NCBI RefSeq assembly: GCF_013343005.1
Contig: NZ_CP054491.1
Coordinates: forward strand, 1,116,001-1,180,000
Direction: 5' to 3'
DNA length: 64,000 bases
DNA from: Candidatus Reidiella endopervernicosa
Lineage (GTDB): Bacteria; Pseudomonadota; Gammaproteobacteria; GCF-013343005
Shown here: positions 6,037-59,588 of the stretch, piece by piece
Numbering within the stretch: position 1 is the first letter of the stretch
Layout of the letters: each line of letters starts with the position of its first letter
Translations under genes and position numbers: made by a program
Notes under the pieces: generated by a model
Databases searched by the model: none
What the model saw: the letters and a program-made list of their open reading frames with translations, nothing else
What the model was told of the DNA's origin: nothing

Positions 6037-7085
6037 ATGCAGTTGAGTTGTAGCGGTTGTTTCTCTGCGATGGTTGGTCTCTATCGATCATTACTGTTTT
6101 TGGGGCTTGTCTCAATAGCGCTTCCAGTTGTGGCTGCCGGGCCGCTACGCATCAATACCGGCTTTACTCCTCCCGTCTCCGGTCTGCTCGAACAGATCAT
6201 GATCGAAGCCTTTAAGCGTGTAGATGTTGAGATGAGTTTCTACGAGCTCCCGGCTGAACGTTCACTGAAACTGGTGGTAAGTGGTGTCGATGATGGTGAC
6301 TGCTGCCGCATCCCCCGTGCGATTAGGAGAGACTATCCAGGGCTGATTCGGGTGCCGGAGAGTGTCTATGTGGCGCGATTCAGCGCCTTTGCCAAACGGC
6401 CAGTACCAGAGGTGTTGAGTTGGAATGATTTGAAACCCTACAACGTGGCGACGGTGACCGGCTGGAAGATTATCGTTAATAACCTCAGGCGGGTCTCTCC
6501 AGCAACCACCCATGTGGTTGACCATCCTCAGTCGATGTTTGAGATGTTGCAGCGCGATCGGATCGATATCGCGAGCTTCGGCTATCTGAGTGGGTTGTGG
6601 CGGCTAAAACAGCAGGGGCTTGTCGGGGAGTCGCTATTTTTGCGGAAGCTTGTTTTGGGCATCCAAGCCCAAGCAAGCGGCAAATACTTAACGCGACCGT
6701 TTATGCCTACGGCGCCCCGACGTCCTGCGTACGTTGCGTAATCACCTCTTCGCGGCTCTACACAACTCCCTCAGTGACTCTACGCCGACATAAAGCCGCT
6801 GCTGCATCTTCTCCGTCGTTCGCTCACGCTCTCAACTACGAATAGGCAGACGGCGTCGACTATCGGGGACTAACCGCCTTCGCTTCGCTATCCATGGCGG
6901 TCAGCGATAGAGAAATCGAAGTGATCGATCCACCCCTGGCCGCTGAGCCGCTCTATCTCTATCTTCATCCCAAACACGAGGGGTTGGCACCAAGACTGGC
7001 AACGGTGCTGCGTAAAATGAAGCGTGAGGGCCTAATCGAACAGCTGACCATGCAAGTGCTGGAAAAATTGCCGCTGATCCAATGA
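6037..7085 (+). pseudogene. Periplasmic solute-binding-like protein, split by a 284-bp mobile element
   Basis: The start ATG 6037 follows GAGGAG by 7 bp. The product has a signal peptide (LLFLGLVSIALPVVAAG), then an amino-acid-type solute-binding fold (family 3-like: LRINTGFTPPVSG, AERSLKLV, YNVATVTGWK). At residue 195 the frame enters the element at 6623-6906 and soon stops. Downstream the frame resumes as EIEVIDPPLAAEPLYLYLHP to the stop at 7085. Deleting 6623-6906 joins CTTG to ATAGAG and gives an uninterrupted 254-residue protein, so the insertion looks recent. The stop overlaps the start of the following sensor gene (ATGA), so the pair was an operon of a periplasmic binding protein plus a c-di-GMP sensor. 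Confidence 0.85.
6623..6906 (+). mobile_element. Hairpin-ended short element, copy 1
   Basis: First of six related 282-284-bp copies. It starts TCGGGGAGTCGCTATTTTTG and ends CATGGCGGTCAGCG. Near the left end lies a hairpin around GGGC-ATCCAA-GCCC with AAGC/GCTT-type flanks, near the right end ACCGCC...GGCGGT. There are no terminal inverted repeats and no target duplication. Its ends are defined by the reading frame of the split solute-binding gene, which is restored when exactly this segment is removed. No transposase is encoded; one frame gives a misleading peptide (LNATVYAYGAPT...) that recurs in every copy. Confidence 0.9.
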
Positions 7086-13440: not shown

Positions 13441-15133
13441 CTAGGCAGCCAGCTGCTGGATGATGCTATTGAGGCCTGCCTCAGAGCTGTTGAGTCGTTC
13501 GAGTGCGTCATCAAGCTGGCTCTGCTCGAGACCGAGTGCGGTGAGCAGCGATTGTGGCAGGGTGTCGCGTACGCCGTCACCGAACCCCTGGGCACCGAGA
13601 AGTTGATCGGCGATGAAGACCAGGTTGGCGTAGGGTGCATATTCACCACAGTAGGCCGAGTTGTGATGCTCGCGCACAGTGGTGTTGATCTCCTCGGGCA
13701 TCCGCCAGCTGCGCATCAGCCAGTTACCCATGATGGTGTGATCGACCCCCAGGGCGCGCTTCTCAATCAGCGTGACCGGCAGCTCTGGATTGGCCTCGAC
13801 CAGCTAATCGAGAATGGTGAACTCCTTGCGGAACAGGTGGCCGGTGAGCAGAAAACCGAAGTTGTGTAGCAGACCGGCAAGGTAGGCGAGACCCGGTTTA
13901 ACTCCCATCTGTTTAGGCAGCAGTGATGCGAGCGATTGGCTGAGGGCGGCCGAGTAGACCGCGTGGTGCCAGAAGGCGTTGAGTCCCAGTGGTCCCTGGG
14001 CAGGGTTGTGGAAGGCGCGCCCGGCAGCAAGACCAAGGGCGATGTTAAGGGTGTTTTCGAACCCCAGTACCCGTGCGATGGCGTCGTGTATCGATTCGAT
14101 CTTGCCACGGTAGTTAAACATCGCAGAGCCAGCGTAGCGGACTATCTGCGCCGCCAGCGAGGGGTCCGATTCAACGATCTCACTGAGGTGGGTCACGGTG
14201 GCGTGGGGATCGTTGCGCAGGCGCAGCAGTTGCATCGCTGCATCGGGCATGGTCGGTAGGTGTTTGACCGCCCGTATCTGGCGGCGGATCTCCTCGATTG
14301 GCAGCAATCCCCTCGGGGAGTCGCTATTTTGCGAAAGTTTGTTTTGGGCATCCAAGCCCAAGCAAACAGCAAAAACTTAACGCGACCGTTTATGCCTACG
14401 GCGCCCCGACGTCCTGCGTTCGTTGCGTAATCACCTCTTCGCGGCTCTACACAACTCCCTCAGTGACTCTACGCCGACATAAGCCGCTGCTGCATCTTCT
14501 TCGTCGTCCGCTCGCGCTCTCAACTACGAATATGCAGACGGCGTCGACTATCGCGGACTAACCGCCTTCGCTTCGCTATCCATGGCGGTCAGCGTCGGTC
14601 AGGGTGCCGGCTATTTTCTCCGGAATCACCAGCTCTCTGGTCACGCCACGGCTGATCGGTTTTCCCAACATCGAGATATCACCGTGCCAGCTGCCGGTAT
14701 GCAGCAGGTAGACGTCGCTGTTGCTGAGTCGCAGTAGTGATTCGTTATTGCCGGAGATGACGTAGATCTCATCACACGACTCAAAGCGGTTATCGACAAT
14801 AGCGTCGATGGCGTAGGCGGCAGCAATGGGAGGAATGGCACCCTCTGCACAGTCAGAGAGCAGTGCCATAATGGTTTCGCGTTTGGCCGGTTCCAGTTCC
14901 GGTCGCCCCATCTCGCTCCGCAGGGCATTGATATCGACCTGACGAGAGGCGGGCAGTACCGCCATCAGCAGGCCGTGACTATCTTCGAAAATAGCAGCGC
15001 GAGCCAATCGCTCAAGACCGATGCCGGTGTGGCTGGCGATCTGTTCGAGGCTGCCGGTACGAGGATGCACAATGGCGGCGTAGCCGATGTTCAGCAGCTG
15101 GAGATAGTTGGCGATTTTCTCCGGTAGTTTCAT
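13441..15133 (-). pseudogene. YbaK/aminoacyl-tRNA-deacylase-like domain fused to HDOD domain, broken twice
   Basis: Starting at 15133 the frame encodes a YbaK-like domain (MKLPEKIANYLQLLNIGYAA, LARAAIFEDSHGLLMAVLPA, GSWHGDISML). It enters the element at 14313-14594. Beyond it the frame continues as an HDOD domain (IRAVKHLPTMPDAAMQLLRL, ARVLGFENTLNIALGLAAG, YLAGLLHNFGF). An in-frame TAG at 13804-13806 interrupts the HDOD part, after which the same frame runs on for 121 codons (EANPELPVTLIEKRA, ...TTVREHHNS...) to 13441. YbaK-HDOD fusions occur in gammaproteobacterial signalling proteins. Frame across the insertion is restored if 283 bp (14312-14594) are removed, one base more than the aligned element. 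Two independent lesions make loss of function likely. Confidence 0.85.
14313..14594 (+). mobile_element. Hairpin-ended short element, copy 2
   Basis: The copy starts TCGGGGAGTCGC and ends GGTCAGCG, antisense to the YbaK-HDOD gene it interrupts. The left subterminal hairpin is the clearest of the set: GTTTG-TTTTGGGC-ATCCAA-GCCCAA-GCAAAC. The right hairpin has stem ACCGCC/GGCGGT. No target duplication is seen. Internal differences from copy 1 are single-base changes and one-base indels. Confidence 0.9.
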
Positions 15134-19080: not shown

Positions 19081-20333
19081 TGAGGCTCCCCCAGTTTAAC
19101 GGATGAATTAATTAAGAGGCACACTTTGCCTCGTATTCTGCAGGACTTACATACCCCAAGTACGAGTGACGCCTGCGTCTGTTATAAAAGACTTCGATGT
19201 ATTCAAACAGACTCTGCTTTGCTTCCTGTTTGGTTTTGTAATCTTCGTAATCTACCAGTTCGGTCTTAAGTGTACCGAAGAAACTTTCCGCCACCGCATT
19301 ATCCAGGCATTCACCTTTACGGCTCATGCTGCAGCGTAATGAGCTCTCTTTCAACAGCCTCTGGTAGTCACCTGAAGCATAGGTTCTGCCCTGGTCTGAG
19401 TGCACAACTACTGACTCTACTCGGCCTCTTCGCCAGATAGCCATCGTGAGTGCGTCCTTCACCAGTAGAGTGTTGTTATGGTTGCTCATAGCCCAGCCAA
19501 TGACATGCCTTGAATAGAGATCAATGATGACGGCCAGATAAAGCCACCCTTGCCGCGTCGGTATGAAGGTGGTGTCAGAGACCCAGGCTTTATCAGGTCT
19601 TTCCACATCAAACTCTCGCTTAAGCAGATCTGGCGCGGGCTGCATCGTGTTCTTTGAGTTAGTCGTTATGACAAACTTTCTAGCCATCTTAGAGGCAATG
19701 TCATTTGCCCTCATCAGTCTGGCCCACGATTAACACCAACACGTTCTCCATCTCTTGCAGATCTTTATGGATGCGAGGCGATCCATAGATCTGCCGACTT
19801 GCCTTGTGAAACAGCTTTATTTTAGCGGTGAGCTGGCGATCCTCAATGGAGCGCTTGCTTTCAGGTCGGTTGCACCATGAATAGTAGCCATTCACTGATA
19901 CATCAAGCGCATGACAGAGCCGTATAATTCGATGCTTTGTGCTGAGCGATTGAATAAAGGCGTACTTCACTTGAGATCCTCGCAAAGTACGCGGCGGCTT
20001 TTTAGGATTTCAAGCTCCTCTTTCAGCCGTTCATTCTCTTGGCGAAGGGTGGTGACTTCGCTTTGATCCTGCTTCTTTGGCCTTCCCGGACCTTCAAAGG
20101 CTTTGTTTCCTTTGTTGGATAACTGCTCTTTCCATTTGTAGAGTTGATTACGCCGAATACCAAGCTCCATAGCGATATCAGTGGCTGGTCTATCAGACTC
20201 ATCCATCAGGCGAACCGCTTCTAATTTGAACTCTTTGGTGTAGGTCTTATATGGCTTGCGTTTTCTAGTCATTTGATACTCCTATGGCGACATTGTCGCT
20301 TATTAAAAGTACCCGTTAAACTGGGGAGGTTCA
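19081..20333 (-). mobile_element. IS3-family insertion sequence, copy A (defective)
   Basis: The 1253-bp element has ends TGAGGCTCCCCCAGTTTAAC and (reverse) TGAACCTCCCCAGTTTAACG, imperfect inverted repeats of about 22 bp ending TGA...TCA. It holds orfA and orfB in the usual overlapping arrangement and is nearly identical to copy B. Flanking bases do not form a target duplication: the orfA side reads GGGGTCAGAT, as in copy B, while the orfB side reads AAATCGGGG. Confidence 0.92.
19112..20272 (-). pseudogene. IS3-family transposase orfA/orfB, copy A
   Basis: OrfA (from 20272) is a helix-turn-helix and leucine-zipper protein (KEFKLEAVRLMDESDRPATD, EVTTLRQENERLKEELEILK). The A-tract that acts as the -1 frameshift site in this family is only 5 A here, against 7 A in copy B, so the orfA frame ends early. 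OrfB (to 19112) has the DDE triad in KAWVSDTTF, VVVHSDQGR and NAVAESFFGTLKTE. OrfB is itself broken near 19735-19760, where bases are missing compared with copy B (GERVGVNRVARLMR is lost). The copy is probably unable to make a full OrfAB transposase. Confidence 0.88.
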
Positions 20334-20548
20334 ATCTGACCCCTTGATCCTTGATCCTTGATCCCATTTGGATGTCGTATGAGATGATTGCCTGAGTATC
20401 TGGTTTGTTGCACGTGATAGGGTTGGTAGGGTTTAAATAATATAGAGCGAACCGATTTGGAGAAATACACCAAACAGTGGTTTGATTATAGTTCATTTGT
20501 TGTTTGCTAAGCTGTTGAATCGTGTTTTTGATAAGATAATCTCTCCTG
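20334..20548. other. Short AT-rich spacer between IS3 copy A and element copy 3
   Basis: It begins with ATCTGACCCC, the complement of the GGGGTCAGAT seen beside IS3 copy B, and continues with three tandem CCTTGATC units (about 20339-20364). I see no gene in it. Confidence 0.5.
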
Positions 20549-20830
20549 CGCTGACCGCCATGGATAGCGAAGCGAAGGCGGTTAGTCCGCGATAGTCGAC
20601 GCCGTCTGCATATTCGTAGTTGAGAGCGCGAGCGGACGACGAAGAAGATGCAGCAGCGGCTTTATGTCGGCGTAGAGTCACTGAGGGAGTTGTGTAGAGC
20701 CGCGAAGAGGTGATTACGCAACGAACGCAGGACGTCGGGGCGCCGTAGGCATAAACGGTCGCGTTAAGTATTTGCCGCTTGCTTGGGCTTGGATGCCCAA
20801 AACAAACTTTCGCAAAATAGCGACTCCCGA
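20549..20830 (-). mobile_element. Hairpin-ended short element, copy 3
   Basis: Minus-strand copy, ends CGCTGACCGCC (left on the plus strand) and GCGACTCCCGA (right; one C fewer than the other copies). Its host context is not a recognisable gene. It lies 216 bp from IS3 copy A and 73 bp from a small lipoprotein gene. Confidence 0.88.
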
Positions 20831-21351: not shown

Positions 21352-22608
21352 TGAACCTCCCCCAGTTTAACGGGTACTTTTAATAAGCGACAATGTCGCC
21401 ATAGGAGTATCCAAATGACTAGAAAACGCAAGCCATATAAGACCTACACCAAAGAGTTCAAATTAGAAGCGGTTCGCCTGATGGATGAGTCTGATAGACC
21501 AGCCACTGATATCGCTATGGAGCTTGGTATTCGGCGTAATCAACTCTACAAATGGAAAGAGCAGTTATCCAACAAAGGAAACAAAGCCTTTGAAGGTCCA
21601 GGAAGGCCAAAGAAACAGGATCAAAGCGAAGTCACCACCCTTCGCCAAGAGAATGAACGGCTGAAAGAGGAGCTTGAAATCCTAAAAAAAGCCGCCGCGT
21701 ACTTTGCGAGGGATCTCAGTGAAGTACGCCTTTATTCAATCGCTCAGCACAAAGCATCGAATTATACGGCTCTGTCATGCGCTTGATGTATCAGTGAATG
21801 GCTACTATTCATGGTGCAACCGACCTGAAAGCAAGCGCTCCATTGAGGATCGCCAGCTCACCGCTAAAATAAAGCTGTTTCACAGCAAGTCGGCAGATCT
21901 ATGGATCGCCTCGCATCCATAAAGATCTGCAAGAGATGGGCGAACGTGTTGGTGTTAATCGTGTGGCCAGACTGATGAGGGCAAATGACATTGCATCTAA
22001 GATGGCTAGAAAGTTTGTCATAACGACTAACTCAAAGAACACGATGCAGCCCGCGCCAGATCTGCTTAAGCGAGAGTTTGATGTGGAAAGACCTGATAAA
22101 GCCTGGGTCTCTGACACCACCTTCATACCGACGCGGCAAGGGTGGCTTTATCTGGCCGTCATCATTGATCTCTATTCAAGGCATGTCATTGGCTGGGCTA
22201 TGAGCAACCATAATAACACTCTACTGGTGAAGGACGCACTCACGATGGCTATCTGGCGAAGAGGCCGAGTAGAGTCTGTAGTTGTGCACTCAGACCAGGG
22301 CAGAACCTATACTTCAGGTGACTACCAGAGGCTGTTGAAAGAGAGCTCATTACGCTGCAGCATGAGCCGTAAAGGTGAATGCCTGGATAATGCGGTGGCG
22401 GAAAGTTTCTTCGGTACACTTAAGACCGAACTGGTAGATTACGAAGATTACAAAACCAAACAGGAAGCAAAGCAGAGTCTGTTTGAATACATCGAAGTCT
22501 TTTATAACAGACGCAGGCGTCACTCGTACTTGGGGTATGTAAGTCCTGCAGAATACGAGGCAAAGTGTGCCTCTTAATTAATTCATCCGTTAAACCGGGG
22601 GAGCCTCA
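21352..22608 (+). mobile_element. IS3-family insertion sequence, copy B
   Basis: The 1257-bp element runs from TGAACCTCCCCCAGTTTAAC to GGGGGAGCCTCA. A 3-bp duplication GAT (21349-21351 and 22609-22611) flanks it, as is usual for the family. It is inverted relative to copy A and nearly identical in sequence. Confidence 0.95.
21415..22577 (+). pseudogene. IS3-family transposase orfA/orfB, copy B
   Basis: OrfA starts at 21415 and retains the 7-A slippery tract (CCTAAAAAAAGCC, near 21683) expected for programmed -1 frameshifting. OrfB has the DDE residues in VSDTTF, HSDQGR and AESFFGTLKTE, but is broken near 21885: copy A reads CACAAGGCAAG and copy B CACAGCAAG, so the frame HKASRQIYGSPRIHKDL is lost. 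Copies A and B therefore carry different lesions, and each keeps the part the other has lost. Confidence 0.88.
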
Positions 22609-23066: not shown

Positions 23067-23349
23067 CGCTGACCGCCATGGATAGCGAAGCGAAGGCGGT
23101 TAGTCCCCGATAGTCGACGCCGTCTGCCTATTCGTAGTTGAGAGCGCGAGCGAACGACGAAGAAGATGCAGCAGCGGCTTTATGTCGGCGTAGAGTCAGT
23201 GAGGGAGTTGTGTAGAGCCGCGAAGAGGTGATTACGCAACGAACGCAGGACGTCGGGGCGCCGTAGGCATAAACGGTCGCGTTAAGTATTTGCCGCTTGC
23301 TTGGGCTTGATGCCCAAAACATGCTTCCGCAAAAATAGCGACTCCCCGA
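23067..23349 (-). mobile_element. Hairpin-ended short element, copy 4
   Basis: 283 bp, in the same orientation as the host gene. The ends are TCGGGGAGTCGC and GGTCAGCG on the minus strand. Host codons abut exactly (GAC ACA | TTA GTT) after removal and no bases are duplicated. Confidence 0.9.
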
Positions 23350-23523: not shown

Positions 23524-23805
23524 CGCTGACCGCCATGGAGAGCGAAGTGAGGGCGGTTAGTCCCCGATAGTCGACGCCGTCTGCCTATTCGTAGTTGAGA
23601 GCGCGAGCGGACGACGAAGAAGATGCAGCAGCGGCTTTATGTCGGCGTAGAGTCACTGAGGGAGTTGTGTAGAGCCGCGAAGAGGTGATTACGCAACGTA
23701 CGCAGGACGGTCGGGGCGCCGTAGGCATAAACGGTCGCGTTAAGTTTTGCTGTTTGCTTGGGCTTGATGCCCAAAACAAACTTTCGCAAAATAGCGACTC
23801 CCCGG
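23524..23805 (-). mobile_element. Hairpin-ended short element, copy 5
   Basis: 282 bp, same orientation as the host gene and 174 bp from copy 4. The first base is C instead of T (CCGGGGAGTCGC). Removal joins AAT to ATC in frame, with no duplication. Confidence 0.9.
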
Positions 23806-24339: not shown

Positions 24340-26097
24340 TTAAATCTTAAACTGCCCCACCAGTCTCTGCATCTCATCGGCGAGCTGTGCCAGATTGTCA
24401 CTGCTGATGGCGGTGGTGTTGGCGCGATCGACGGTCTGTTCTACCTCATGGCTGATGGCGCTGATGGTTCGGCTGACCTCTTCGGAGGTCTCGCTCTGTT
24501 GGGTGGCGGCGGAGGCGATGCGCTCATTCATCTCGCGAATGGTATCGACCATGGTGGTGATGCTCTGTAGTGCTTCACCCGCATGGGCGGCCTGATCGAC
24601 GCTCTGCTGTACCTGTTCTCGTCCGTTCTCCATTACAGTCACTGCCTCCTTGGCGTTGACCTGCAGGCTTTCGATCATGCCGTTGATCTCCTCTGCCGAG
24701 GATTGGGTTCGGCTTGCCAAGGTTCTGACCTCGTCGGCGACCACGGCAAAACCACGCCCCTGTTCACCGGCACGGGCCGCCTCAATGGCGGCGTTGAGTG
24801 CCAGCAGGTTGGTCTGTTCGGCGATGCCCTTGATCACATCAAGCACCGCACCGATCTCCTCGCTGCGTTTGCCGAGGCGAGTGATGACCTCCGAGGCGGT
24901 TCCAATCTCGGTGGCCAGTCTGTCTATGGAGTTGATGGTCTCGCTGACGACCTGTTGTCCCTGGCGCGCCTCGTCGTCGGTGCGCTGGGTGGCGTCGGAG
25001 GCGTCGGCGGCGTGGCTGGCAATCTCACCGATGGTGGAGGTCATGATGCTGATTGAGTGGGCCACTTCCTCGGTATCGGACTTCTGACGGACCAACCCCT
25101 GATTGGTTTCGGCGGCGACCATCGACATCTCCTCCGCAGCCCCGGAGAGCGTACTGGTTGCGGTTGCAACGCCGCTGATGCCGGAGCGGAATTTCACCAG
25201 CAGGTTGTTGAAGGTGTCGGCGATTTCGCCTAACTCATCGCTATTCTGGTGGACGATCTGCTGGGTCAGGTCTGAGCTCTGTTCAACATCGACAATGGTT
25301 GCCTTAATGGCGTTGATCGCTCTGTGGATGCGCCGTGCGAGCAGCCAGGCAAGAAAGGCGGCGATCAGCAGTGCGCCGATGCTCAGCGGTGCAACGTTTA
25401 CCAGAATGGCTTTCCATAGACCGCCGATGTGTGAGGCATCTTTAACCACCCAGATGGTGCCGCCACCCTCGTTGCCGGTATCGAGTAGCATATGCAGGCG
25501 CCAACTCTTAGGATCGAGATAGTAGCCGGAGGTGAACTGACTCTCGTCAGGACGTCGGTAGTTGCTCATCACGTCGCTGAGCTGTTGCTGTCCACGCTGG
25601 TACTGTTCTAGATCGCCCTTAAAACGATTGGCGAGTTTCTCGATGCGCCCGCGCTTCGGGTGGTCGGCTGCCATCTGTTTGAGTTTGTTACGGGCTGAGT
25701 CGACCTTCTTTACCAAACCCGCCTCATAGTTATCTGGGTAGGCGGTGCGTAGGATCGCACTCTGACCGCTGTCGTAGCTGATGCCAAACGCTTCGCCGTT
25801 CTGGTCGGTCTTGCCCTCTACAACAAACAGCATCAGCGACTCATCGGCCTGGTAGAGGCTCAGCGCCTCCTTGTCCTGAACGTTGGCGTAGTTGCCGCCA
25901 CCGACGGAGGCCTTCATCAGATTAAGAATGGGCTGGAGCCCGACACGTGATAGCTCCAGTGAGTGTTCAACGGCGGTATCGTAGTCATTCTGGTAACGGG
26001 CAAAGCCGAGTACCAGGCTGGTCACCAGTAGAAGAACAATAGGTCCACCCGTCACTACCTGACGAATCGACAAAGAGGGGAAGGTTAGGTTGGCCAT
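24340..26097 (-). CDS. Methyl-accepting chemotaxis protein
   Basis: The 585-residue receptor starts at [16 protein letters not shown] lies 7 bp before that ATG, so longer upstream starts are rejected. It has TM1 (about residues 12-33), a periplasmic four-helix-like sensor region of about 200 residues, TM2 (about 238-262, [18 protein letters not shown]), HAMP and a long coiled coil. The signalling tip is [20 protein letters not shown], which binds CheA/CheW. No CheR-docking pentapeptide is seen at the C-terminus (VGQFKI). It follows a monohaem cytochrome gene by 88 bp, so it may sense redox state or a ligand handled by that protein; this is inference. Confidence 0.95.
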
Positions 26098-26185
26098 CAG
26101 TCGGGCCTCCTGCATGTACTTAATACAAAGGTGCAAGGTTCACGGTAGCCAGAGCGCCTGGCCACCATGAACGGCGATGCACTGG

Positions 26186-26662
26186 TTACTTGTTGCAGAC
26201 GCCGGTAATGCAGGCCTCACCGTAGCCCGAGTGGCAACTGGTGCAGGTGGCGGGTGCCAGCGATGGGTGTGCACCGCTGATCTCCTGCTTATCCATAGTG
26301 TAGGCACCATACTGCGGTTCACCCAGTAGATGCTCGGTCACCAGTAATACTTTGATATCGATTAGCTCTAGTACAGCGGTAGGCGCATCGGCATAGGCAC
26401 CCGCCTTCTGGCTGGGGTTAATGCGTACGTTGTAGGCGGTTCCCTTACCGTCACCGACCCAGTTATAGGTCTTCATTGTCTCCTGCACGATGGGTGGCAG
26501 GTCGGCAGGGATCGCGGTGTCTTTACCGAGAATTTGACCGCTGTGGTGAATTGGCCAGCTATCCCAGCCGTCGGGGAAGGCCGCATCGGAAGCGGCAAGG
26601 GCGCTGACGCTGACAAGCAGGGATGAGAGAAACAGGATCAGGGATTTGAGTGTTCCGTTCAT
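26186..26662 (-). CDS. Exported monohaem c-type cytochrome (P460-like?)
   Basis: The 158-residue protein has a signal peptide (LILFLSSLLVSVSALAAS) and a single haem motif CTSCH near the C-terminus, followed by GYGEACITGVCNK with two further cysteines. The central part (WPIHHSGQILGK, YNVRINPSQK, LLVTEHLLGEPQYG) and the C-terminal haem recall cytochrome P460-type proteins, but I am not sure of that. I start at MNGTLKS, which has GGAG at a normal distance; an ATG seven codons upstream is less likely. A perfect FNR-type box lies about 130 bp upstream. The chemoreceptor gene follows on the same strand. Confidence 0.75.
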   Translation of the reverse strand: MNGTLKSLILFLSSLLVSVSALAASDAAFPDGWDSWPIHHSGQILGKDTAIPADLPPIVQETMKTYNWVGDGKGTAYNVRINPSQKAGAYADAPTAVLELIDIKVLLVTEHLLGEPQYGAYTMDKQEISGAHPSLAPATCTSCHSGYGEACITGVCNK

Positions 26663-26683
26663 ACTAGTGACTCCGTGCATCAT

Positions 26684-26984
26684 TTAAGGTTTGGATAGCT
26701 ACTCGGTGGGCAAAACGACCGGCCCATATACTTCAGCTCCCTCTAAAGTAAAAACCCCTTCACTTATGGGGTATAGGGTCTGGGAGGACATTGATGCAGA
26801 TCAATCAACAGTGAGAATTGTTTGCATTGGCAGCAAATGTCATGAGGTGGCTGGCTGGTAGGTAGTGATATCGAGTTTGTTTGATACGCAGTGACGTGGG
26901 GGGTGAGGGGCCCCGCCGCCTGATCGCGAGATTGAGGTGTATGTAAGAGCCGAGTTGTTTGACTACAAAAAGAGGTTAGGTGGG
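26684..26984. other. Control region between the YCII gene end and the cytochrome gene
   Basis: No gene is seen. It holds the FNR-type box at 26791-26804 and a small inverted repeat ACCCC...GGGGT (about 26753-26772), between the box and the cytochrome start. Confidence 0.6.
26791..26804. promoter_or_regulatory. FNR/Anr-type operator
   Basis: TTGATGCAGATCAA matches the consensus TTGAT-N4-ATCAA at every fixed position. It lies about 130 bp upstream of the minus-strand cytochrome-chemoreceptor pair and downstream of the YCII gene, so anaerobic or low-oxygen control of the cytochrome operon is the likely role. Confidence 0.75.
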
Positions 26985-27308
26985 TTATTGGTTTATGGGC
27001 ATCTCAACTAGCTCCGAAACCTCAAGTGAGCCATTCACCTCAAGAAAGGGACACCGTTTTGCGATCGACAGCGCGGATGCCATCGAGTCGGTTTGAATGA
27101 TGGTAAAGCCTGACATCGTCGTTAAGCTTCCACGCGTAACCGAACCATCGGGTGCAACGACCGAGGTCTCCTTGAGTGGATTGGCGGGGCTGATTGCTGC
27201 CACGCCTAGCGAATTCAACCACTCCATATATTTTGCGAAGTGCTGCTTGCCCTCTTCTGGGGTGGCCGGCTGGTCGCCACCGAGGTAGGTGATCACGTAT
27301 TGCGGCAT
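26985..27308 (-). CDS. YCII-family protein
   Basis: The 107-residue ferredoxin-like alpha/beta protein begins MPQYVITYLGGDQP and has a region with QHFAKYMEWLNSLG and a C-terminal GFTIIQTDSMASALSIAKRC, typical of YCII/DGPF-type proteins. The family has a conserved His-Asp pair of uncertain activity. It has its own spacing on both sides (128 bp to the LysE gene), so no operon is implied. Confidence 0.8.
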   Translation of the reverse strand: MPQYVITYLGGDQPATPEEGKQHFAKYMEWLNSLGVAAISPANPLKETSVVAPDGSVTRGSLTTMSGFTIIQTDSMASALSIAKRCPFLEVNGSLEVSELVEMPINQ

Positions 27309-59002: not shown

Positions 59003-59317
59003 TTACTTCTTCTCTTCGAACTGCTTACGCATGGCGGCAATACGCTCTTCGTGTGCCTTCTTCTGCGCATCCATCATCTCTTTCATGCGCTGAGCCATCG
59101 CCTCGGCCTCTTTTTTCTGTGCCTCATAGGCTGCGTTCTGCTGCTCCATAATCTGCTTGCTCTGCTCAACAGCCGCCTTCTGCTGTGCATCGACCTGCTC
59201 CTGAGTCATTGCCTGAGGTGCGGTGTAGGGAGCTGCTGCATAGGGTGCGTAGCCGTAAGGGGCATAGCCGTAGGGGGCGTAACCGTTATAACTATTCCAG
59301 CCGTCGCTGACCGCCAT
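59003..59317 (-). pseudogene. Globule-like Tyr/Pro-rich protein with long helical tail, N-terminus lost to a mobile element
   Basis: The open frame begins inside element copy 6 (MAVS) and then reads GWNSYNGYAPYGYAPYGYAP, YAAAPYTAPQAMTQEQVDAQ, and a charged Gln/Lys/Glu-rich helix to the end (QKKAHEERIAAMRKQFEEKK). The APYGY repeats resemble those of sulfur globule or envelope proteins. No signal peptide is present, and in the flanking DNA upstream of the element I find no plausible export signal in frame. The original start was lost or moved with the insertion. The terminator downstream is intact. Any remaining product would be cytoplasmic. Confidence 0.65.
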
Positions 59318-59588
59318 GGAGAGCGAAGTGAGGGCGGTTAGTCCCCGATAGTCGACGCCGTCTGCCTATTCGTAGTTGAGAGCGCGAGCGAACGACGGAG
59401 AAGATGCAGCAGCGGCTTTATGTCGGCGTAGAGTCACTGAGGGAGTTGTGTAGAGCCGCGAAGAGGTGATTACGCAACGAACGCAGGACGGTCGGGGCGC
59501 CGCAGGCATAAACGGTCGCGTGAAGTTTTGCTGTTTGCTTGGGCTTGGATGCCCAAAACAAACTTTCGCAAAAATAGCGACTCCCCGG
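59305..59588 (-). mobile_element. Hairpin-ended short element, copy 6
   Basis: 284 bp, ends CCGGGGAGTCGC and GGTCAGCG on the minus strand, same orientation as the gene it truncates. It is 35 kb from the nearest other copy, showing that the family is not confined to the 18-24 kb cluster. No duplication flanks it. Confidence 0.9.

Follow-up and report, generated by a model that had tools for sequence, protein, structure and literature searches.

The 64-kb window analysed here (the whole stretch of 64,000 nucleotides [nt] from the genome of Candidatus Reidiella endopervernicosa, contig NZ_CP054491.1, positions 1,116,001 to 1,180,000) contains a gene for a secreted monohaem cytochrome, followed by a gene for a transmembrane methyl-accepting receptor and preceded by a perfect FNR/DNR-type box. 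Our results suggest that the two genes probably encode a periplasmic haem sensing subunit and its receptor in an operon controlled by FNR or DNR, of which we infer the docking, the ligand, the regulator and the direction of the response. The two genes would form one sensory unit. The cytochrome would be exported to the periplasm and would hold one covalent haem c in a fold of the P460/c'-beta type. Its state would change when a small ligand, most likely nitric oxide (NO), binds to the haem, or when the redox state changes, and it would dock on the haemless Cache-like domain of the receptor. The receptor would then relay the signal via its HAMP domain to the chemotaxis domain, and in relatives to a diguanylate cyclase. 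FNR or a DNR-like NO regulator would turn on the operon at low oxygen, where such a sensor would be useful.

Both genes, with all their features given below, are on the minus strand, and 88 nt separate the stop codon of the cytochrome gene from the ATG of the receptor gene. The cytochrome gene (26186..26662) encodes 158 residues between the ATG at 26662 and the stop at 26186. The listed open reading frame starts upstream at 26683; the ATG at 26662 was chosen, which has the ribosome-binding site GGAG in front (26671..26674). Residues 1-23 (26594..26662) were judged by eye to be a signal peptide, and a helix is predicted for residues 3-15 in the model. The haem c attachment motif CTSCH is found near the C-terminus (26231..26245) and is followed by two extra cysteines, C151 and C156 (26195..26212). 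The receptor gene (24340..26097; ATG 26097, stop 24340) is preceded by the ribosome-binding site AGGAGG (26106..26111). Alignment and modelling placed a periplasmic Cache-like sensor domain at about residues 34-227 (25417..25998), with a GGGNYAN signature and without a haem motif. Behind this domain are a HAMP domain (25198..25344; PF00672, E 1.3e-5) and the signalling domain MCPsignal (24451..24999; PF00015, E 9.3e-48), which makes the receptor a methyl-accepting chemotaxis protein (MCP).

The pairing of the two genes was followed in other genomes. One profile scan of genome contigs gave 23 loci, and L023 was added from another search and kept as a separate row; the loci L011-L022, L024 and L026 duplicate sequences among L028-L044 and were counted only once. 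In 22 of the 23 loci the cytochrome gene was directly followed by a receptor gene with the same sensor domain, the sole exception being L049, a fragment at a contig end. The receptor has a frame break in L045 and is broken by an insertion in L023. Co-occurrence was analysed with separate profiles for the cytochrome (A1 or A3) and for the sensor domain (A4). Among the 369 genomes of the class sample, strong cytochrome matches were obtained in G000, G211, G312 and G316 and strong sensor matches in G000, G211 and G312; in G316, the cytochrome pieces lie right at the beginning of a contig. Seven of the 24 genomes of family f98 had the cytochrome and seven the sensor domain, six of them shared. The odd ones were G316 and G394, where the sensor domain is 39 nt from the locus end, which we read as a contig end. 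In family f89, both were found in the same 7 of 12 genomes, and the genomes G371 and G380 with two cytochromes each have two sensor domains. Marginal matches (sensor in G045 and G186, cytochrome in G107; E 2e-4 to 7e-4) were dropped from these counts as chance. The correlation between cytochrome and sensor distances (r 0.91) was given no weight, because it is expected of linked genes in any case. The adjacency and the near-perfect co-occurrence in relatives strongly support the link between cytochrome and receptor that an earlier note on this DNA had drawn from the sequence of the window.

The pair spans the Gammaproteobacteria and the Campylobacterota. In the collection searched, the order of the window is represented by its own genome only and the nearest relatives belong to other orders; among the carriers, Vibrio harveyi, V. 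owensii and V. jasicida can be cultured. In Vibrio campbellii LJC015 (L006, 5989-6809), a frame break in the cytochrome gene precedes the haem motif, and the receptor is truncated halfway through the sensor domain; judged from the sequence, both genes of this pair are decaying together. A broken V. campbellii copy was the only record found in the plasmid collection, and the viral contigs gave no match.

The output of the receptor differs between the loci. An MCP output was identified with PF00015 in the window and in L028, and by its motif in all but one of the 14 loci L028-L041, the exception being L039, which is cut by the contig end. A GGDEF output was identified with PF00990 in L043, L048 and L050, and by motif in all eight loci L042-L048 and L050; these diguanylate cyclase-type loci come from Vibrio, Veronia, two gammaproteobacterial metagenome-assembled genomes (MAGs) and Aliarcobacter. 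In the cytochrome tree as well as in the sensor tree, the two groups are split by one branch with a support of 100, and the branches are long. The genome G380, which shares contigs with L029 and L042, has both kinds. We conclude that the output domain was swapped while the cytochrome and the sensor domain stayed.

The sensor domain was searched for a haem site of its own. No CXXCH motif was found in any of the 23 sensor domain sequences, so that a haem inside the receptor itself was rejected, and the domain does not belong to the sCache_heme (DUF3365/Tll0287) type. Against Pfam, the sensor domain gave no credible family, and no Cache family was among the matches listed. The model of the domain has a predicted local distance difference test score (pLDDT) of 89; Foldseek returned nothing at E<=0.001 for it. 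The domains of TlpC, TlpA and WalK reached a Z of about 8 among many rows, which is not decisive.

The cytochrome is predicted to have the P460/c'-beta fold. Since the window protein alone matches nothing, its family is recognisable only via the relatives. Of the 24 family members, 15 weakly matched PF16694 (Cytochrome_P460) at E<=1, the best with 6.6e-6; the best of three relatives that were scanned with bit scores reached 26.2 bits, compared with a cut-off of 27 bits. When the family profile was run against the PDB sequences, P460 structures ranked first, although weakly (E 0.067 and 0.069). A second look was taken at the structural model by aligning it with VIA-align to the candidates from Foldseek. 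The top five were all of the c'-beta or P460 type, with Z values of 9.4, 9.1, 9.0, 8.1 and 7.7, and the next unrelated row had 4.2. In this order they are the cytochromes c'-beta of Thermus, Methylococcus (two entries) and Nitrosomonas, then the P460 of Methylococcus, with 103-106 aligned residues and root-mean-square deviations of 2.5-3.3. The protein also shares the superfamily trait of being secreted, with a single CXXCH close to the C-terminus; the signal peptide was judged by eye. Several results speak against this assignment. The window cytochrome alone was assigned to no family in Pfam or NCBIfam and did not match PF16694 at all, and a phmmer search of the PDB with it gave chance-level matches only. 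Its model has a middling confidence (pLDDT 77, with the eight C-terminal residues below 50), and Foldseek found nothing below E 0.001 and did not rank the P460 fold.

All 24 cytochromes share the motif CxxCHxGYxxxCxxGxC, including C140, C143 and H144 of the haem site and the cysteines C151 and C156, and the histidine in VT(E/D)H. At the position of the lysine that is cross-linked to the haem in P460, the family has leucine (L98 in the window protein) or alanine, according to a weak alignment to the N. europaea P460 (2je2, E 0.067), in which chain residue 71 was read as Lys70 of Table 2 in PMC11928373. Leucine or alanine at this weakly aligned position would favour the gas-binding c'-beta type over the hydroxylamine oxidases.

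The box TTGATGCAGATCAA is located at 26791-26804. It is palindromic and matches the FNR/DNR-type consensus TTGATNNNNATCAA exactly, as the earlier note had claimed, and no other perfect match occurs in the window. In dinucleotide shuffles of the window, a mean of 0.02 perfect boxes was observed, and 2 of 100 shuffles had at least one. The box is 128 nt 5' of the cytochrome ATG. The upstream gene on the same strand (26985-27308) ends 180 nt before the box, which is why the box was assigned to the control region of the cytochrome gene; the gene layout thus bears out the earlier description of a box in front of a monohaem cytochrome gene and a methyl-accepting receptor gene. With the box centred at -41.5, the class II register of FNR, a putative -10 element CATAAG (26763..26768) would occupy the positions -12 to -7, and this geometry would predict a transcript start near 26756.

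Genome-wide, in the single contig of 3.45 Mb, 14 perfect boxes were found, and none for the control with the reversed pattern. Six of the 14 are intergenic by the open reading frame call, or seven if the frame that covers L059 is not genuine. Two candidate regulators are encoded. L065 is an FNR homologue that has C-x2-C-x5-C in the motif ACDLCALYGIC plus a later cysteine; it matched the NCBIfam model Fnr with E 2.9e-60 and 203.6 bits, below the cut-off of 228 bits. L067, a protein of the CRP/FNR family, lacks the iron-sulfur cysteines and has ETLSR in its recognition helix. Control of the operon by FNR or DNR is likely, judging from these sequence features.

The box may also be read by a DNR-type NO regulator and not by FNR, so that the operon would be induced by NO. 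We regard this as a possible but rather unlikely reading. DNR, an NO-responsive relative of FNR, recognises a motif that resembles the FNR consensus TTGATnnnnATCAA according to the part of PMC1274295 available to us, L067 is a candidate for such a regulator, and NO induction would suit an NO-sensing cytochrome. On the other hand, the best-supported regulator in the genome is the FNR homologue L065, and the best NCBIfam match of L067 is FtrB, below the cut-off of that family, and not DNR. The suggestion in the earlier note that the gene pair is oxygen-controlled was therefore only partly sustained: a box beyond chance, an FNR homologue in the genome and the -10 register support it, whereas the similar motif and L067 also allow an NO reading. 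The predicted fold of the cytochrome, the exchangeable output of the receptor and the sigma-28 promoters of relatives had gone unnoticed in that note.

Two side observations concern perfect boxes elsewhere in the genome. One of these is located at 1501-1514 of L057 (G000:C1:1688007-1688020), and the ATG of a receptor gene that has the haem motif CLLCH follows 219 nt downstream. This haem-type chemoreceptor gene is split by a 280-bp repeat and is preceded by an apparent tandem paralogue. Another perfect FNR box borders L051, a gene resembling the NnrS-like gene of L036 (NnrS by eye, no match in Pfam). The repeat copy that cuts the gene in L057 was used as the query for an interspersed repeat of about 280 bp with six copies in the window (6626-6906, 14316-14594, 20543-20829, 23067-23346, 23524-23802 and 59305-59585) and nine more elsewhere in the genome, 93-99% identical to the query. 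The window also contains two copies of an IS3-type transposase gene, recognised by eye, at 19112-20272 and 21415-22577 in opposite orientation, which encode near-identical proteins.

The control regions of the relatives were then compared. Conservation of the box, which the earlier note had proposed as a check, was not found: within 400 nt of the mature start, none of the 23 non-redundant relatives (22 loci and L023) has a box with at most one mismatch, and absence in relatives is one of the results that the note had named as refuting its suggestion, which applies here as far as a conserved control is concerned. A box with one mismatch is found at -407 in L048, and boxes with at most two mismatches in the 420 nt scanned were present in seven loci at scattered positions. 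Instead, the MCP-type relatives have a promoter of the sigma-28 (FliA) type, the consensus of which we take to be TAAA-N15-GCCGATAA. A site with at most 2 mismatches in the 12 positions was found 5' of the cytochrome gene in 12 of 15 MCP-type relatives, exact in L039 and with one mismatch in L032, L034 and L035. The best sites of L030 and L040 have three mismatches, and that of L023 has four. As a control, the reverse strand showed no such site in the 15 loci, nor did the eight GGDEF-type loci. In the 12 loci, 0 to 3.5% of 200 shuffles per locus equalled the match; these loci are related and hence not independent, and the distances of their sites differ, from -148 to -342. Since the sites occur in the MCP-type and not in the GGDEF-type loci, the cytochrome appears to be read as a chemotaxis gene where its partner is a chemoreceptor, but not where it is a cyclase. 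The cytochrome gene of the window lacks a sigma-28 site, the best candidate having five mismatches, and is preceded by the FNR/DNR box instead. A survey of sigma-28 sites in the window's own genome was uninformative (34 sites with at most one mismatch and 11 for the control; 22 of 30 examined were inside reading frames).

A sigma-54 promoter before the cytochrome genes was considered and rejected, as one site with two mismatches was found in L041 only. In three related MAGs, a regulator gene is divergent from the cytochrome gene (L028 3331-4749, L030 3287-4696 and L031 3350-4771). The one in L028 encodes a PAS-type sigma-54 activator (PF00158), and the genes in L030 and L031 resemble it by eye. 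The search showed no sigma-54 promoter 5' of the cytochrome genes in these three loci.

Several results from the control regions weigh against an FNR- or DNR-controlled promoter in the window. The box is absent from the relatives, as described above. A sigma-70 scan for two hexamers in 26090-26990 showed no promoter, which is expected for an activator-dependent promoter, yet counts as no support. The putative -10 element matches TATAAT at only 4 of 6 positions, and no more than 7 of the genome's 14 perfect boxes lie between genes, at least 7 being inside reading frames. No terminator was found in 26090-26990. The absence from relatives and the boxes inside reading frames would fit a chance palindrome without a regulatory role. 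We consider this quite improbable, because 0.02 boxes were expected in the window, because 14 were found genome-wide with none in the control, and because the box is in the right place and register. In addition, the window needs another promoter, since it lacks the sigma-28 promoter of the relatives. FNR or DNR control of the operon is therefore our preferred reading.

The cytochrome could also be an electron carrier or an NO scavenger, with the receptor sensing something else and the operon being shared because both are used under the same low-oxygen condition. Electron transport is a common role of c-type cytochromes. For the cytochromes c'-beta, binding of NO and CO and a proposed role in buffering NO are described in the part of PMC10318465 that was accessible. 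This explanation seems unlikely to us, since the pairing lasts across the Gammaproteobacteria and the Campylobacterota and through a change of the output, with near-perfect co-occurrence, and since the sigma-28 promoters of the MCP-type relatives suit a chemotaxis part better than a detoxifier.

If the cytochrome is a sensing subunit, as we favour, NO is a tentative first guess for its ligand and redox sensing is the main alternative. The guess is based on three observations: the cytochromes c'-beta bind NO and CO and are described chiefly as gas binders (PMC11928373, in the sections available); signalling sCache_heme members behave as NO sensors (PMC12889525, in the part at hand); and a haemerythrin-type gene (PF01814) and an NnrS-like gene (NnrS by eye, no match in Pfam) are near the pair in L036 (1827-3854). 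The ligand is proposed from a modelled fold, and pure electron transfer would be possible as well, which counts against our proposal. In the redox alternative, the haem or the cysteines C151 and C156 would report the periplasmic redox state, leading to energy taxis and not to gas taxis. A redox role had been raised in the earlier note; it would agree with the invariance of both cysteines in all 24 sequences and with the low potentials of characterised P460/c'-beta proteins, about -200 to -430 mV (PMC11928373, sections as above). We find it somewhat unlikely, since the same source treats the cytochromes c'-beta mainly as gas binders and since C151 and C156 may form a plain structural disulfide.

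Taken together, we lean slightly towards a more general view, in which one branch of the P460/c'-beta cytochromes would serve as a dedicated signalling subunit, a detachable haem sensor for one receptor family with exchangeable outputs that was rewired from sigma-28 to FNR/DNR in the lineage of the window. With a conserved receptor partner, this branch would gain a function and could be assayed quickly. The pair would also illustrate how a single sensor was moved in nature between the outputs chemotaxis and cyclic di-GMP, as well as between promoter types. A literature search found no paper that joins cytochrome P460 with a chemoreceptor, with a diguanylate cyclase, or with methyl-accepting chemotaxis and nitric oxide. 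In the text portions returned, cytochrome P460 and chemotaxis were mentioned together only in genome papers, with one mention each. The main text of the 2025 review of the superfamily (PMC11928373) does not contain 'chemotaxis' or 'diguanylate', and the preprint on haem Cache domains (PMC12889525) does not contain 'P460'. Each part is of a known kind; what is new within these searches is their combination, in which a detachable P460/c'-beta subunit would serve a swappable receptor.

The cytochrome resembles the cytochromes c'-beta and P460 (PF16694 superfamily) in its predicted fold, its single haem c, the CXXCH near the C-terminus and its secretion. It differs from P460 by the leucine or alanine at the weakly aligned position of the cross-linking lysine, by the invariant cysteine pair after the CXXCH and by the genetic tie to a receptor. 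H-NOX and NosP are cytoplasmic proteins of other folds with a non-covalent haem, whereas a periplasmic haem c is predicted here and a chemoreceptor version exists. The two-gene design is alike, in that a haem protein acts with a separate signalling enzyme, including diguanylate cyclases (PMC8846402, as far as the excerpt goes). If our proposal is true, the pair would be the equivalent, in the periplasm, of the two-gene sensing by H-NOX and NosP and would add, beside their cytoplasmic routes, a periplasmic haem route that steers swimming or cyclic di-GMP and is carried by culturable Vibrio. YfiR and LsrB, unlike the cytochrome of the window, are not known to carry a haem. In YfiR-YfiN and, in the sources partly available, LsrB-Tsr, a periplasmic protein likewise acts on the periplasmic domain of a cyclase or a chemoreceptor. 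The sCache_heme (DUF3365/Tll0287) receptors are similar in sensing by a periplasmic c-type haem with MCP or GGDEF outputs (PMC12889525, same part as above); their haem is within the Cache domain, whereas here a separate protein with a different fold would hold it. Geobacter GSU0582 and GSU0935 (PMC3460858) and DcrA, as described in the portions at hand, also use a c-type haem as the periplasmic input of an MCP, but they hold the haem in the receptor itself, whereas the pair described here would place it on a separate protein.

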